Shown one piece after another: positions 1,446 through 57,103 of a DNA stretch of 64,000 nt (positions are counted from its first letter, which is position 1; every line of letters begins with the position of its first letter). The DNA lies in NCBI RefSeq assembly GCF_011300455.1, contig NZ_CP049869.1:1426001-1490000 (forward strand), in the 5' to 3' direction. Source of the stretch: Sphingomonas piscis. GTDB lineage: Bacteria > Pseudomonadota > Alphaproteobacteria > Sphingomonadales > Sphingomonadaceae. The position numbers and the translations under genes are program-made. Under the pieces are notes generated by a model. The model saw only the letters and a list, made by a program, of their open reading frames with translations, was not told where the DNA came from and did no database searches.

Positions 1446-1461
1446 TGTTTCACGTGAAACA
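1446..1461. promoter_or_regulatory. parS: parS centromere-like site (ParB binding)
   Basis: The 16 bases TGTTTCACGTGAAACA form a perfect palindrome and match the widely conserved bacterial parS consensus. The site begins one base before the mnmE stop codon on the far side and lies about 45 bases upstream of mnmG. parS sites cluster around parAB near the origin, and mnmE-mnmG commonly neighbours rsmG-parA-parB, which would lie left of this window. ParB/Spo0J would nucleate here for chromosome segregation. The identity is read directly from sequence; binding is inferred. Confidence 0.92.
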
Positions 1462-5746: not shown

Positions 5747-6199
5747 CTAGAAAGGTTTGACGATCACCAGGACGACAATCAGCGCCGCGGCGATTCCGGG
5801 GATCTCATTCATGATCCGGAGCGTGCGATTTTCAAGCGGCCGTTTGCCTTGGGCAAGGCGCTTTCCGTAGACCGCAAGCCAGCCCTGATAACCGCTCAGC
5901 GCGACCACCATGAGGAACTTGGCGACGAACCAGCCCTGGTGCCAAGCGCCGATGTTCGCGGCTAGCAACAAGCCCAGGATCCAAACCAGCCCCATCGCTG
6001 GCCCAAGGATGATCGACCGGACCCGCTCCTCCCGTTCGATCCAGGCGCGGTCCTCGGCCGACCCAGGCGTCGTTTCATGATGGTAGACATAGAATCGGGG
6101 CAGGATGAACAAACCGGCCATCCAGAAGATGACAAAGGTCAGATGCGCCGCCTTCACCCACGGATAAGCATTACCAAGGAAGCCAACCAAGCCGTCCAT
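5747..6199 (-). CDS. hemJ: Protoporphyrinogen oxidase HemJ
   Basis: HemJ is the membrane-bound, heme-containing protoporphyrinogen IX oxidase used by most alphaproteobacteria in place of HemG or HemY. The 150-aa product has four membrane helices and the family motifs KAAHLTFVIFWMAGLFILPR (first helix with its conserved His), FYVYHHE, and the C-terminal RTLRIMNEIPG. A TTG two codons upstream extends the frame to 6202, but ATG 6199 overlaps the hemE stop as TGATG and is preferred. The hemE-hemJ coupling fits heme biosynthesis. Confidence 0.85.
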   Translation of the reverse strand: MDGLVGFLGNAYPWVKAAHLTFVIFWMAGLFILPRFYVYHHETTPGSAEDRAWIEREERVRSIILGPAMGLVWILGLLLAANIGAWHQGWFVAKFLMVVALSGYQGWLAVYGKRLAQGKRPLENRTLRIMNEIPGIAAALIVVLVIVKPF

Positions 6200-7257
6200 C
6201 AACGCCCCTTCACCAGCTGCATCAAAGTCTCGACATGCGCGATCGGGGTTTCCTTGATGATCCCGTGGCCAAGATTGAAGATGTGCGGGCGGTCCGCGAA
6301 TGCGTCAAGCACCCGTTGCACGGCATCGCCCAATGCTTCTCCGCCTGTGAGCAACGCAAGCGGATCGAGATTGCCCTGCACCGGCATCCCATTGGGCAAA
6401 GCGCGGCTGGCCCAGACCGGATCAACTGTCTCGTCGATCCCCACCGCATCGATTCCGGTCTGTTCGGCATAAGCGGGCAACTTGCCGCCTGCGCCCTTCG
6501 GGAAGCCGATCACGGGAATGCCTGGGTGGCGCGTCTTAAAGGCAGCGACGATCCGGCTCGTCGGGGCGATGACCCAGCGCTCGAACTGTTCGGGTGACAG
6601 GCTGCCCGCCCAGCTGTCGAACAATTGCACGCACTCCGCCCCAGCCTGAATCTGGCCTGAGAGATAATCCACCGTCATGTCGGCGATGGCGTCGATGATC
6701 CGGCCGAACCGGGTAGGGTCGAGATAGGCCAAGGCACGGCTGTCCGCCTGATCGCGGCTTCCCTGGCCTGCGATCATGTAGGTCGCGACCGTCCAGGGAG
6801 CGCCGGCAAAGCCGATCAGCGTCTTCCGGGGCGTAAGTTGGGCCTTCACCTTGGCCACCGTGTCGTAAATCGGCTGTAGGCGCTCTGGAGCCGCCGTCAG
6901 GCCGTCCAGGGGCGCACCAAGCAGCGGTGGGGAGAGCCGTGGTCCTTCGCCCGCAACGAATGTCAGATCTTGGCCTAGCGCGTAGGGAACGATCAGGATG
7001 TCGGAGAAGAGGATGGCGGCGTCGAGCTGCGGGAAACGCCTCAGCGGCTGAAGCGTGATCTCCGCTGCAGCATTGCCGTCGTAGACCAGCTCCAGAAAGC
7101 CGCCCTTCTCCTGCCGCAACGCGCGATACTCCGGAAGGTAGCGCCCGGCCTGGCGCATCATCCACACCGGCGGCGGGTCCAGGCGCTCGCCGCGAAGCAC
7201 ACGAAGCAGGGGATTGTCGGCCGAGCCGGAGGCCAAGCCGGAAGGTTGGGACGCCAC
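6199..7257 (-). CDS. hemE: Uroporphyrinogen decarboxylase HemE
   Basis: HemE decarboxylates uroporphyrinogen III to coproporphyrinogen III in cytoplasmic heme synthesis. From GTG 7257 the protein has 352 aa, the usual length. The family signature PVWMMRQAGRYLPEYR is near residue 30, and GFAGAPWTVATYMI and FNLGHGI are further on. The GTG is preceded by GGAGAG at suitable spacing; an upstream ATG at 7353 would add 32 residues encoded by the AT-rich gap and is rejected. hemE is the gene classically adjacent to the origin in Caulobacter and Rickettsia. Confidence 0.95.
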   Translation of the reverse strand: MASQPSGLASGSADNPLLRVLRGERLDPPPVWMMRQAGRYLPEYRALRQEKGGFLELVYDGNAAAEITLQPLRRFPQLDAAILFSDILIVPYALGQDLTFVAGEGPRLSPPLLGAPLDGLTAAPERLQPIYDTVAKVKAQLTPRKTLIGFAGAPWTVATYMIAGQGSRDQADSRALAYLDPTRFGRIIDAIADMTVDYLSGQIQAGAECVQLFDSWAGSLSPEQFERWVIAPTSRIVAAFKTRHPGIPVIGFPKGAGGKLPAYAEQTGIDAVGIDETVDPVWASRALPNGMPVQGNLDPLALLTGGEALGDAVQRVLDAFADRPHIFNLGHGIIKETPIAHVETLMQLVKGR

Positions 7258-7550
7258 CCTCTTTCTCTCCTTAAATAATATATAGAATAGATAGATAAGG
7301 TTGTTGGGGCGCGGGTAGCGGGGTTTAGGGCCACCTCCCAAACTTGCCAACAATGGCCGCCTCTAGGCGACTCCGTACAATCCGGCGAGTCGCGCCGGAC
7401 CGCACCCATGATTCACAGGCTGTGGGCCGATCGCAGCGGCAGTGGATGAATTGTTGAACAAGCATGAGCGATCGGTTGCGAACCGCTCGGTTGAGCCCGT
7501 CCCCAGATTGGCGCTACGCCGGGCACAGTGTTTTTCCACAAGGTTATGCC
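7258..7550. other. oriC: Candidate chromosomal replication origin (hemE-maf intergenic)
   Basis: This 293-base gap has no credible gene. It holds an AT-rich stretch (about 7270-7301) unlike its surroundings, which could be an unwinding element; three GANTC methylation sites within 46 bases (7369, 7387, 7410); and DnaA-box-like nonamers TTTTCCACA (7532-7540, one mismatch from TTATCCACA) and TGATTCACA (7409-7417, weaker). hemE on one side and maf-coaE-dnaQ on the other reproduce the layout known around the Caulobacter and Rickettsia origins. parS lies 6 kb away. Also contains the divergent hemE and maf promoters, which I cannot pin down. Confidence 0.5.
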
Positions 7551-8129
7551 GTGCCGCTGATTCTCGCTTCCGCAAGCTCAAGCCGAAGGGCCATGCTGGA
7601 GGCGGCTGGCGTGCCGTTCAGCGTGCAGCCGTCGTCCGTTGACGAAACCCAGATGAAGCTGAGGCTCGACCCTACGGAGATCGCGCTGGAACTTGCCAAG
7701 GCCAAGGCACTGAACGTGAGCGGATCGCATGCAGGCGACTGGGTAATCGGCAGCGACTCGGTCGTCAGCGTGGAAGGAAGGGTCTTCGACAAACCGCGCA
7801 GCCTGGATGAAGCGGCGGAGCATCTTCGCCTTTTTTCCGGCAAGACGATGCGGCTCACCAGCGCTGTGGCGCTCGCCCGTGGTGGTCAAATCGATTGGGT
7901 GCACGAGGAAACGGCCGATTTGCATGTTCGGCCTTTAAGCAATGCCTTCATTGCCGATTATTTGTCGGAGGAGTGGCCTGCCGTCAGCTTTTGCGTCGGC
8001 GTGTTCCGGATCGAAGGGCGCGGCGTTCAGCTCTTTAATCGGGTGGAGGGTAGCCATTTCACTATCCTCGGCATGCCGCTGCTGCCGCTACTCAGCGCAT
8101 TGCGGCAGCGCGATCAGCTGTCCGAATGA
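7551..8129 (+). CDS. maf: Maf-family nucleotide pyrophosphatase
   Basis: Maf proteins hydrolyse non-canonical or modified nucleoside triphosphates to monophosphates. The 192-aa product starts at GTG 7551 (VPLILASASSSRRAML), giving the conserved SxSxRR motif at the N-terminus. The metal-binding region GSDSVVSVEGRVFDKP and the C-terminal GSHFTILGMPLLPLL are also present. An in-frame ATG at 7464 would add 29 residues with no family match. It overlaps coaE by four bases; the aroE often found between these genes in relatives is absent. Confidence 0.9.
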   Translation: MPLILASASSSRRAMLEAAGVPFSVQPSSVDETQMKLRLDPTEIALELAKAKALNVSGSHAGDWVIGSDSVVSVEGRVFDKPRSLDEAAEHLRLFSGKTMRLTSAVALARGGQIDWVHEETADLHVRPLSNAFIADYLSEEWPAVSFCVGVFRIEGRGVQLFNRVEGSHFTILGMPLLPLLSALRQRDQLSE

Positions 8130-8719
8130 TCAAGATCGCCCTCACCGGCTCCATCGGCATGGGGAAATCCACGGTCGCGCAGATGTTCGCAGCACAAGGA
8201 ATTCCGGTGTTCGACGCCGATGCGGAGGTTCGGGCGATCCAGGCCGATGATGCGGACCTCATCGCCGCCATCGGCAAGCTTTTCCCGGACGCCGTTCGGG
8301 CTGGTCGACTCGATCGTACGGTGTTGGCCAGGCTTGCACCAATGAGCCCAGAGCGGTTGGCGAAGCTCGAAGCATTGATTCACCCGCGGGTGCGGATCCG
8401 CCGCGACGAGTTCATCGCCGCCCATGCGACGGCCAGGGCGCTGCTCTTCGAAATACCTTTGCTGTTCGAAACGGGTGGCGAGGGCGAATTCGACAAAGTG
8501 ATCGTCGTTTCTGCGCTCCCCGGAATTCAGCGCGCCCGCGCTCTGGCACGGCCCGGTATGACCGCTGCCAAGCTCGATGCGATTCTCGCCAGACAAATGC
8601 CCGACCGGGACAAACGATCACGCGCCGATTTCGTGATCGACACCGACACTGACCTATCCACAACTGAGCGTCAGGTGACCGACATCATCGCTTGTCTGGG
8701 ACTCGCACAAAGCCGATAA
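8126..8719 (+). CDS. coaE: Dephospho-CoA kinase CoaE
   Basis: CoaE phosphorylates the ribose 3'-OH of dephospho-CoA, the last step of coenzyme A synthesis. The 197-aa protein opens with the P-loop [11 protein letters not shown] and has the conserved [15 protein letters not shown] and [12 protein letters not shown] segments. The ATG overlaps the maf stop (ATGA), and dnaQ begins 8 bases after its stop, so maf-coaE-dnaQ form an operon. A near-consensus DnaA nonamer CTATCCACA lies inside the gene at 8654. Confidence 0.94.
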
Positions 8720-8727
8720 TCGTCGGC

Positions 8728-9426
8728 ATGCGGGAAGTGGTGTTCGATACGGAAACGACCGGACTCAACCCGGCCGGCGGCGACCGGCTGGTGGAGATCG
8801 GTTGTGTCGAGATGTTCAACCGGGTCGAGACGGGCCGGCACTTTCACGCATATTTCAACCCTGACCGGTTGATGCCGAGCGAGGCGGAGGCGGTGCACGG
8901 CCTCAGCACCATCTTCCTTTCCGACAAGCCGCGCTTCGGTGAGCGGGTCGAAGAGTTGCTGGAATTTCTGGGCGATGCACCGTTGGTCGCGCATAATGCC
9001 AGCTTCGACTTCGGCTTCCTCAATCACGAACTGACCCTCTGCGGGCGGCCGCTCGTCTGCATGACCCGAATGGTCGACACGTTGGTGATCGCCCGGACTC
9101 GTCACCCGGGTGCCAAGCACAGCCTCGACGCCTTGTGCACGCGCTTCGGCGTCGACCGCAGCCAGCGCGTGAAGCACGGCGCCCTGCTCGACGCTCAACT
9201 GCTTGCACAGGTCTATGTCGAGCTGACGGGTGGGCGGCAGATCGGGCTCGGACTGGTCGCCGACACGCAGGATGCCAGGCTTGCCGACGTGCCGGGAACG
9301 ATCCGAGTCCGGGAACCCAGGGCGCCGCGGCCTCATCACGCCGCATTCGAGGAACTTGAACGTCACCGCGCGTTTATCGCTAAGCTCGACAACGCGCTCT
9401 GGCACCGGTTCGCTCAGGCCAGTTGA
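8728..9426 (+). CDS. dnaQ: DNA polymerase III epsilon subunit (3'-5' exonuclease)
   Basis: DnaQ is the proofreading exonuclease of the replicative polymerase. The 232-aa product begins [15 protein letters not shown], giving the ExoI DxE motif (DTET), followed by Exo[16 protein letters not shown] and ExoIII with [14 protein letters not shown]. The C-terminal third, linking to polymerase alpha, is Arg/His-rich as usual. An upstream start at 8692 would overlap coaE and add 12 residues; ATG 8728 is preferred. secB, which often follows in relatives, is not here. Confidence 0.94.
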
Positions 9427-9482
9427 CGAGCGTCCTGCGCCGCTCCTAACGGCGCGCCCTCGATGCAAGGAGCTTTGCCACA

Positions 9483-10046
9483 GTGGACGTTCGGGTTTCA
9501 GGCCATCAGGTCGACACGGGTGAGACGCTGCGCGAGCATGCCGCCCAGCGCATTTCGGACATCGCCGAAAAATATTTCTCGCGCGCGATCGGCGCCAATG
9601 TGACGTTCGGACGCGGGCCGCACAATGATTTTACCTGCGACATTCTGGCACCCGTTGCTCAAGGCGTCGTGCTCAAGGCGTCGCACAGCGCTCAAGAGGC
9701 GCAGATCGCCTTCAACGGCGCCGCCGACCGGATCGAAAAGCAGTTGCGCCGCTATGTGCGGCGTCTGAAGGATCACAAGGCCGAACCGGCCGCTTACGTC
9801 GAGAATGCCGGCTACACTGTATTCTCGCCTGCCAACGAGGATGTGGAGGAAGCGCCGGACAGCCCGCTGGTGGTCGCCGAAACCCGCGTCGATATTCCCG
9901 AGTCTAGCGTCTCTGACGCGGTGATGCTGATGGACCTCCGCAATACCAACGCGCTCTTGTTCAAGAATAGTGCGTCTGGCGAGTTCAACATGATCTACCG
10001 CCGGGAAGACGGCAACATCGGCTGGGTCGAGCCAAAGCTCGCCTGA
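9483..10046 (+). CDS. hpf: Ribosome hibernation promoting factor, long form
   Basis: Long-form HPF binds the 30S decoding centre and dimerises 70S into 100S ribosomes in stationary phase. The 187-aa protein has the N-terminal S30AE domain (MDVRVSGHQVDTGETLREHA to about 105), an acidic linker, and the C-terminal dimerisation domain with SVSDAVMLMDLRNTNALLF and NIGWVEPK. The start is GTG 9483, ten bases after a good AAGGAG. ptsN follows 27 bases downstream, a pairing common in proteobacteria. Confidence 0.93.
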   Translation: MDVRVSGHQVDTGETLREHAAQRISDIAEKYFSRAIGANVTFGRGPHNDFTCDILAPVAQGVVLKASHSAQEAQIAFNGAADRIEKQLRRYVRRLKDHKAEPAAYVENAGYTVFSPANEDVEEAPDSPLVVAETRVDIPESSVSDAVMLMDLRNTNALLFKNSASGEFNMIYRREDGNIGWVEPKLA

Positions 10047-55843: not shown

Positions 55844-57103
55844 ATGCTGGGACTGGATTTCATCAAGGCCAACCGCGAGGCCGTCGAGCGCGCGATTGCG
55901 CAGAAGAATGTTGGACTCGATCTCGATGCTCTGCTCACCCTCGAGGGTGAGGTCCGCGGACTCAAGACTGAGATCGACCAGCTCCGCGCCGAGCGCAACG
56001 CGATCAGCGCAGGCTTCAAAAGCGCGGCGCCGGAAGAAAAAGCGGAGCTAGGCCGCCGGGCCAAGGAAGCAGGTGCCCGCGCCGGGGAACTCGAAGGCCA
56101 TCTCGCCGAGAAGCAGCGCTTGCTGACGGCACTCCAGATGCGGGTGCCCAACATCCCGTACGAAGGCGCGCCGATCGGGCCCGACGAGAATAGCAATATC
56201 GTCATCCGCACCGAGGGCAGCCCACCTGAGTTCGGCTTCGAACCCCTCGACCACGTGGCACTTATCGAGAAGAATGGCTGGGCCGACCTGTCGCGGATCA
56301 CCCAGGTGTCGGGGTCGCGCACCTATTGCCTGAAGGGGCGGTTGGCGCTGCTCGAAACCAAGCTGATGGCTTGGGCGCTCGAGAAGATCGCAGCCGCCGA
56401 ATTCACGCCGATCACCGTTCCCGCGATCGCCCGAGACCAGGCATTCCTCAACCAGGGTCAGTTCCCCGGCCATGAGGAAGAGACCTACCAGCTCCCCAAC
56501 GACGACTTGTGGCTGGCCGGCACCGCGGAGGTGGCGCTGACCTCGCTCCACTCGGGCGAAATTCTCGAATCGGGCAGCCTTCCGGTGCTTTACGCCGGCT
56601 ACTCGCCCTGCTTCCGCCGCGAGGCGGGAAGCGCGGGCCGCGACGTGCGCGGGTTGCTTCGCGTCCACCAGTTCGTGAAGGTCGAGCAATATGTCATCTG
56701 CGAGGCGGACCAAGCGCAGTCGGCCGAATGGCACGCGCGCCTGCTCGAGCTGGCGGAAAGCCTGCTGACAGCGCTGGAAATCCCCTACCAGGTGATCGAA
56801 ACCTCGACCGGCGACATGGGCCTCGGCAAATATCGAATGAACGATATCGAAAGCTGGGTGCCGAGCCTGGGCAAATATCGCGAAACGCATAGCTGCTCGA
56901 CGCTTCACGACTGGCAGGCGCGCCGGGCGAACATCCGTTACCGCGACAGGGACGGCAAGGTTCGGTTCGCCCACACGTTGAACAACACGGCGCTCGCCTC
57001 GCCGCGCATTCTTGTCCCATTGCTGGAGAACCACCAGACGGAAAACGGCCGGGTACGCCTGCCTAGGGTGCTTCAGGAGCTGATGGGCGGAGAGTTTCTC
57101 TGA
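55844..57103 (+). CDS. serS: Serine-tRNA ligase
   Basis: A 419-aa class II synthetase: N-terminal coiled-coil arm (about 25-105), motif 2 CFRREAGSAGRDVRGLLRVHQF and motif 3 NNTALASPRILVPLLENHQ. ATG 55844 (MLGLDFIKANREAVE) is the family start; a frame from 55808 adds 12 residues. The stop TGA overlaps a CTG that appears to start the next gene. Confidence 0.96.
   Translation: MLGLDFIKANREAVERAIAQKNVGLDLDALLTLEGEVRGLKTEIDQLRAERNAISAGFKSAAPEEKAELGRRAKEAGARAGELEGHLAEKQRLLTALQMRVPNIPYEGAPIGPDENSNIVIRTEGSPPEFGFEPLDHVALIEKNGWADLSRITQVSGSRTYCLKGRLALLETKLMAWALEKIAAAEFTPITVPAIARDQAFLNQGQFPGHEEETYQLPNDDLWLAGTAEVALTSLHSGEILESGSLPVLYAGYSPCFRREAGSAGRDVRGLLRVHQFVKVEQYVICEADQAQSAEWHARLLELAESLLTALEIPYQVIETSTGDMGLGKYRMNDIESWVPSLGKYRETHSCSTLHDWQARRANIRYRDRDGKVRFAHTLNNTALASPRILVPLLENHQTENGRVRLPRVLQELMGGEFL

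Follow-up and report, generated by a model that had tools for sequence, protein, structure and literature searches.

The gap of 293 bp between hemE and maf in Sphingomonas piscis is, with a probability that we put at roughly 0.9, the chromosomal origin of replication (oriC), of the hemE-linked alphaproteobacterial type. It lies at 1.433 Mb, in a stretch of 64,000 bp (here called the window) that corresponds to C1:1426001-1490000 of a single contig of 2,718,035 bp. The gap had been put forward as the probable replication origin by a first-pass annotation, a proposal now supported by a pair of parS sites with parAB, by the switch in KOPS polarity, by GC3 skew, and by DnaA boxes that relatives retain in the corresponding gap. 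We suggest that DnaA would bind the central and maf-proximal boxes (at 7409 and 7532; Table 1), would then oligomerise, helped by or extending over weaker sites, and would open the AT-rich tract beside hemE; initiation would be bidirectional, and the copies would then be separated by the ParB-parS complex 6-8 kb from the gap.

As a kind of site, the hemE-linked oriC is already known. oriC has been predicted by hemE in Sphingopyxis and in most Sphingomonadaceae of DoriC (PMC4741004), the Caulobacter origin (Cori) sits between hemE and COG1806 (PMC1914354), Caulobacter origins hold several GANTC sites (PMC3973325), and a strong rise in GANTC around the origin, resolved in 1% bins, is described for four alphaproteobacterial orders including Sphingomonadales (PMC9836097). 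Because both the hemE-linked oriC and the GANTC rise at the origin are in print, neither the origin nor the broad rise is new here.

Table 1. Features of the predicted origin and its surroundings (window positions unless marked C1)
Feature	Position	Strand	Remarks
Predicted oriC (hemE-maf gap)	7258-7550	.	293 bp, hemE start to maf start
hemE	6199-7257	-	GTG start at 7257; TIGR01464, 386.7 bits (cut-off 303)
hemE ribosome-binding site AAGGAGAG	7265-7272		site and start identified by eye from the sequence
maf	7551-8129	+	GTG start (by eye); TIGR00172, 126.8 bits (cut-off 117)
AT-rich tract, candidate DNA unwinding element	7271-7299	.	overlaps hemE leader
Invariant block TTGCCAACA	7344-7352	+	either strand: 14/14 hemE-maf gaps, 24/111 hemE-ppsR gaps
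GANTC site 1 (GACTC)	7369-7373	.	
GANTC site 2 (GAGTC)	7387-7391	.	within GCGAGTCGC (alignment)
GANTC site 3 (GATTC)	7410-7414		inside central DnaA box
Central DnaA box TGATTCACA (T2 to G)	7409-7417	+	contains GANTC site 3
Weak DnaA-like site TCATCCACT	7441-7449	-	2 mismatches; within chance
maf-proximal DnaA box TTTTCCACA	7532-7540	+	123 bp from central box
parS	1446-1461	.	perfect palindrome; 6.0 kb from gap
Second parS	C1:1425680		perfect; just outside window, 7.7 kb from gap

Chromosomal position of the hemE-maf gap

The gap immediately precedes hemE; mnmE and rho lie to one side of it and maf, coaE, and dnaQ to the other, and each of these six genes passes at least one NCBIfam cut-off. 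The gene neighbourhood of the Caulobacter and Rickettsia origins, which the first-pass annotation had recognized, holds for these six but not for ppsR (COG1806), the other border gene of hemE-linked origins: a search with PF03618 gave no match in this genome or in two congeners, as against matches in 140 of 149 family genomes (the nine without include this one, and some are incomplete). With ppsR, the usual partner of hemE, gone, hemE here faces maf; at the other hemE-maf loci the gap alone was seen. Wolbachia origins also lack a ppsR border (PMC1914354), so this border is not strictly defining.

The parS site 6 kb away that had been cited in support of an origin is a perfect copy, and a second copy accompanies it; these are the only two places in the whole genome within two mismatches of parS, and the pair adjoins parB and a ParA-like gene. 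The polarity of KOPS-like GGGNAGGG in the first 120 kb of the contig splits best at 53.5-60.5 kb, where 30 of 35 sites fit, and the arms from this switch to the gap measure approximately 1.34 and 1.38 Mb, which puts the terminus, as judged by KOPS, nearly opposite the gap and its neighbouring parS sites. Diametrically across the chromosome from 56.8 kb is position 1,415,857, 17.5 kb from the gap. A dif-like 28-mer at 56,826 differs at 10 of 28 positions from an E. coli-like dif consensus, and an equally good match arose in 10 of 60 random 120-kb sequences; its CATAA-N6-TTAT core is unique in the 120 kb, the pattern having been picked after the match was seen. This site is weak and near chance.

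KOPS did not serve as a marker of the origin itself. The Poisson change point of plus-strand KOPS (the first 100 of the 200 matches listed, over 0.12-2.09 Mb) falls at 1.684 Mb (1.661-1.718), not at 1.43 Mb, and the counts near the gap (8 plus and 10 minus on the left, 9 plus and 14 minus on the right) are without clear bias, so that the motif is uninformative near the gap.

In many other bacteria the origin lies near dnaA. The DnaA C-terminal domain has one match in this genome, at C1:148,680 (L137), and nothing was found that would favour an origin there: dnaA sits in the terminus region, some 90 kb away from the KOPS switch, and parS and the GC3 skew point instead to 1.30-1.52 Mb. On the strength of that terminus-region position, an origin near dnaA was rejected as scarcely credible. 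dnaA is not kept near the origin in Sphingomonadales (PMC8116508).

Whole-genome skew had been named as a check on the proposal, and our cumulative GC skew, taken over a contiguous 464 kb (1.226-1.690 Mb), gives a divided answer. The gap falls inside a flat trough that extends from about 1.33 to 1.53 Mb, but the minimum itself is at 1,328,967, 104 kb away; the curve dips again near 1.526 Mb and, between the two lows, peaks locally at 1,424,218. Skew is insufficient for locating the origin in several alphaproteobacteria (PMC1914354). Strand-specific GC3 skew was computed for 860 genes, crudely called over 43% of the genome. With the origin at 1.433 Mb and the terminus at 0.07 Mb it distinguishes leading-strand from lagging-strand genes, a value reached by 0 of 2000 label permutations. 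When origin and terminus were both left free on a 20-kb grid over the whole circle, the ten best fits put the origin at 1.30-1.52 Mb and the terminus at 0.02-0.08 Mb, and the bootstrap (5-95%) returned the same 1.30-1.52 Mb with the terminus fixed at 0.07 Mb and the origin allowed to range between 0.9 and 2.0 Mb. Single-origin fits gain slightly when the origin is moved from 1.433 Mb to 1.30-1.34 or 1.52 Mb (R2 of 0.071 at 1.30 Mb versus 0.055 at 1.433 Mb).

The two lows of the GC skew (C1:1329000-1526000) are about equidistant from the gap, at 104 and 93 kb, and the local high is 9 kb off. A recent inversion centred on the origin would leave such twin lows; this idea stays a guess, because a four-segment fit for such an inversion found its best solutions elsewhere and did not choose those points.

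Helix instability, DnaA boxes, and conservation in relatives

The AT-rich tract claimed for the gap is present, and the least stable 40-bp stretch of the window by computation starts at 7259 (-41.3 kcal/mol; the next is -48.0); the 50-bp stretch of lowest GC content in the 64 kb starts at 7256 (0.28; the next is 0.38). We predict that the helix would open here. Period-3 NTG-like repeats at 7290-7307, seen by eye in the alignment beside the tract, could be an element for single-stranded DnaA binding; a reading of them as DnaA-trios does not seem to fit the 3-mer consensus of that element.

The tract also overlaps the hemE ribosome-binding site, which, together with the GC-skew minimum at 1.329 Mb, would suit a different interpretation: that the gap is merely a divergent promoter or leader region of hemE and maf and that replication really starts at another point of the 1.30-1.53 Mb trough, such as that minimum or the vicinity of parAB. 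We consider this improbable. A search restricted to sigma-70-type promoters found no such site in 7100-7700, Rfam gave no match in 6000-9500, and on these results both an RNA element and a promoter of the sigma-70 type were rejected for the gap; the aligned positions in relatives, moreover, carry DnaA boxes and an AT tract as well, and the Caulobacter origin is the matching gap (PMC1914354). Still less probable is a reading of 7464-7550 as coding, in which an N-terminal extension of maf from an ATG at 7464 would shorten the gap. The frame is indeed open back to 7464, but the in-frame upstream residues, compared by eye, are dissimilar across the 14 hemE-maf gaps, four of which carry a stop codon at a distance of 14-21 codons upstream, and the extension was rejected on both counts.

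Evidence for the gap as oriC comes further from its DnaA boxes. The one-mismatch box TTTTCCACA reported in the first-pass annotation is there; it is one of 13 TTWTCCACA matches genome-wide, none of them clustered. The boxes had been called few and degenerate, and there are indeed just two within one mismatch, neither perfect, but the earlier count had overlooked the second, TGATTCACA, which matches TTATNCACA with one mismatch. Two one-mismatch boxes within 300 bp are not unusual, three places in the window reaching that number, and when up to two mismatches are allowed the 64 kb hold 154 sites, three of them in the gap.

Comparison with relatives gives these sites more weight. Loci were drawn from the best 80 of 180 relatives, from 30 of the 147 genomes that gave a match, and then from 40 more of those; six of 149 (L005, L014, L039, L139, L140, and L155) were dropped and the window's own copy (L082) was set aside. 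The 143 related gaps, which show a conserved element, make 144 with the window, or 125 once close copies are removed (111 hemE-ppsR and 14 hemE-maf). TGATTCACA occurs in 12 of the 14 hemE-maf gaps versus 2 of the 111 hemE-ppsR gaps, TTTTCCACA in 10 of the 14 and TTATCCACA in 3 of the 14, and the spacing between boxes is 122-124 bp in all 12 hemE-maf gaps that have both. A set of 100 gaps (99 relatives and the window; a narrow ppsR pattern left out 7 of 107) holds 193 sites within one mismatch of TTATCCACA or TGATCCACA, compared with 9.6 in letter shuffles, and the commonest letters at the position of the central box in this alignment are TATCCaCAG. TGATCCACA, which we take to be the Caulobacter G-box, contains no GANTC. 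DnaA boxes are thus conserved in relatives, as in hemE-linked origins. The TTGCCAACA block is common in the form GCCAACA in hemE-ppsR gaps (71/111).

The gap resembles Caulobacter crescentus Cori in lying beside hemE and in having an AT-rich region, few and weak DnaA boxes, and GANTC sites (PMC4468827, PMC1914354, PMC3973325), as well as a parS within 8 kb; the T2-to-G change of TGATTCACA resembles the T-to-G change of the weaker Caulobacter G-box (PMC4468827). It differs from Cori, which we compared by description and not by sequence, in the absence of ppsR, with maf as the facing gene, and in its central DnaA box, which contains a GANTC. Five CtrA sites are present in Cori, whereas the CtrA motif TTAA-N7-TTAA is found in 0 of 14 hemE-maf gaps, this one included, and in 2 of 111 hemE-ppsR gaps, and control by CtrA at a Caulobacter-consensus site was rejected accordingly. 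The oriC of Sphingopyxis granuli TFA and other Sphingomonadaceae is likewise near hemE and has conserved putative DnaA boxes and a putative unwinding element (PMC4741004); neither the TGATTCACA box nor the hemE-maf arrangement is described in the available text of that report, which we likewise compared by its description rather than by sequence.

GANTC crowding across the Sphingomonadaceae

Three GANTC sites had been counted in 46 bp, and they are confirmed at 7369, 7387, and 7410, spanning exactly 46 bp and forming the only three-in-50-bp cluster in the window. The Poisson chance of three in 293 bp is 0.02; about 1.2 Mb of sampled stretches of the same genome hold triplets in 46 bp at seven starts (five distinct places), and at least three sites are found in 67 of 2786 half-overlapping 330-bp windows from this genome. 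The signal in this genome alone is therefore weak. Two of the five triplet places lie less than 22 kb from the gap (C1:1411642 and 1418848; L284).

Across the family the picture is that of a crowded region. The 125 nonredundant gaps contain 679 GANTC in 43,189 bp (15.7/kb), whereas dinucleotide shuffles of the same gaps contain 188 (sd 11; the highest of 100 runs was 214). Densities are 1.70/kb in the adjoining hemE and 2.97/kb in ppsR or maf, and, with crude gene calls, 2.14/kb in other noncoding DNA of this genome, 2.30/kb in that of G033, and 1.36/kb in that of G094. Of the 16 possible interrupted palindromes of 5 bp, none is as enriched in these Sphingomonadaceae gaps as GANTC (3.57-fold in hemE-ppsR gaps; the next, AGNCT, 2.48-fold). 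Every one of the 125 gaps has at least one site. GANTC crowding is thus a trait of the Sphingomonadaceae, and the window, one of 33 gaps with three or fewer, stands at the low end. The top count is 19 GANTC in a 355-bp origin gap (L175, genome G043).

Beyond the family, hemE was found in 84 of 115 genomes of the class, of which 77 were taken besides G000 and G091 and five were left out; in 60 of the 77 hemE faces ppsR or maf. The GANTC excess in these gaps is small: the ratio of observed to expected is 1.58 (z 5.5) in 35 gaps of at least 0.45 GC from genomes bearing CcrM and 1.32 in 15 AT-richer gaps from such genomes. Ten gaps from genomes without a CcrM match, a small set of mixed GC content and partly incomplete genomes, served as a natural control, and their ratio of 1.54 (z 2.2) is no different; on these figures, no dependence of the GANTC excess on CcrM is seen.

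CcrM itself (PF01555 plus RAMA) is encoded in this genome, and all 149 family genomes (149 of 149) have a match, although one copy has an internal stop. A 330-bp stretch spanning the ccrM start holds seven GANTC (C1:2459056-2459551; L130, L132), and four lie near the inferred 5' end of dnaA (C1:150026); cell-cycle promoters are among the other GANTC-rich windows of the sampled stretches. A second DNA methylase with, by eye, a ParB-like N-terminal stretch (L133; C1:1622819-1623454) is perhaps phage-borne.

A CcrM site inside the central DnaA box

The T5 of TGATTCACA creates GATTC, a CcrM site, and boxes of at most one mismatch that hold a GANTC number 12 of 27 in hemE-maf gaps as against 2 of 250 in hemE-ppsR gaps. 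If the GANTC sites are active, methylation of GATTC in the central box by CcrM may change its affinity for DnaA, a possibility that we regard as unlikely but worth stating, and that would add to the origin reading and not replace it. A hemimethylated daughter origin would then stay held, or stay released, up to the late point of the cycle at which CcrM acts; this would be a timer similar to that of Dam and SeqA. The E. coli oriC is crowded with Dam adenine-methylase sites. The likeness is one of analogy only, in that both origins would be crowded with sites for an adenine methylase, and the methylase and the site differ.

Several observations are consistent with gating by methylation: the GANTC within the central box in 12 of 14 hemE-maf gaps, the excess over shuffled sequence in the 125 gaps, the presence of CcrM in this genome and throughout the family, and the extra chromosome copies that CcrM overexpression gives in Caulobacter (cited in PMC3973325). 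Against it, the DNA content of Caulobacter lacking ccrM stays at the wild-type level in minimal medium, and it was concluded in that work that initiation control does not require CcrM (PMC3973325); the Caulobacter data speak mostly against gating. The class survey, too, shows no CcrM dependence of the GANTC excess, the nested site may have been inherited from a single gain rather than acquired several times over, and the gap in the window has just three GANTC. In Agrobacterium, the origin affected by methylation is ori2 and not ori1, which depends on DnaA (PMC11514494). In the literature searched, mainly the main text of open-access papers, we found neither a GANTC-bearing DnaA box nor GANTC densities resolved to 300 bp.

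The origin of this chromosome is thus placed by several independent lines, where skew alone misleads. Slightly more doubtful even than an effect of methylation on DnaA affinity is the fuller proposal that, in sphingomonads in which hemE faces maf, the central box TGATTCACA became a CcrM switch and the loading of DnaA depends on methylation of the new strand. If true, alphaproteobacteria would have evolved a counterpart of Dam/SeqA control independently, in addition to the crowding of CcrM sites seen in origins throughout the family. The GANTC-bearing DnaA box offers a testable handle on whether CcrM acts at the alphaproteobacterial origin as Dam does in enterobacteria.
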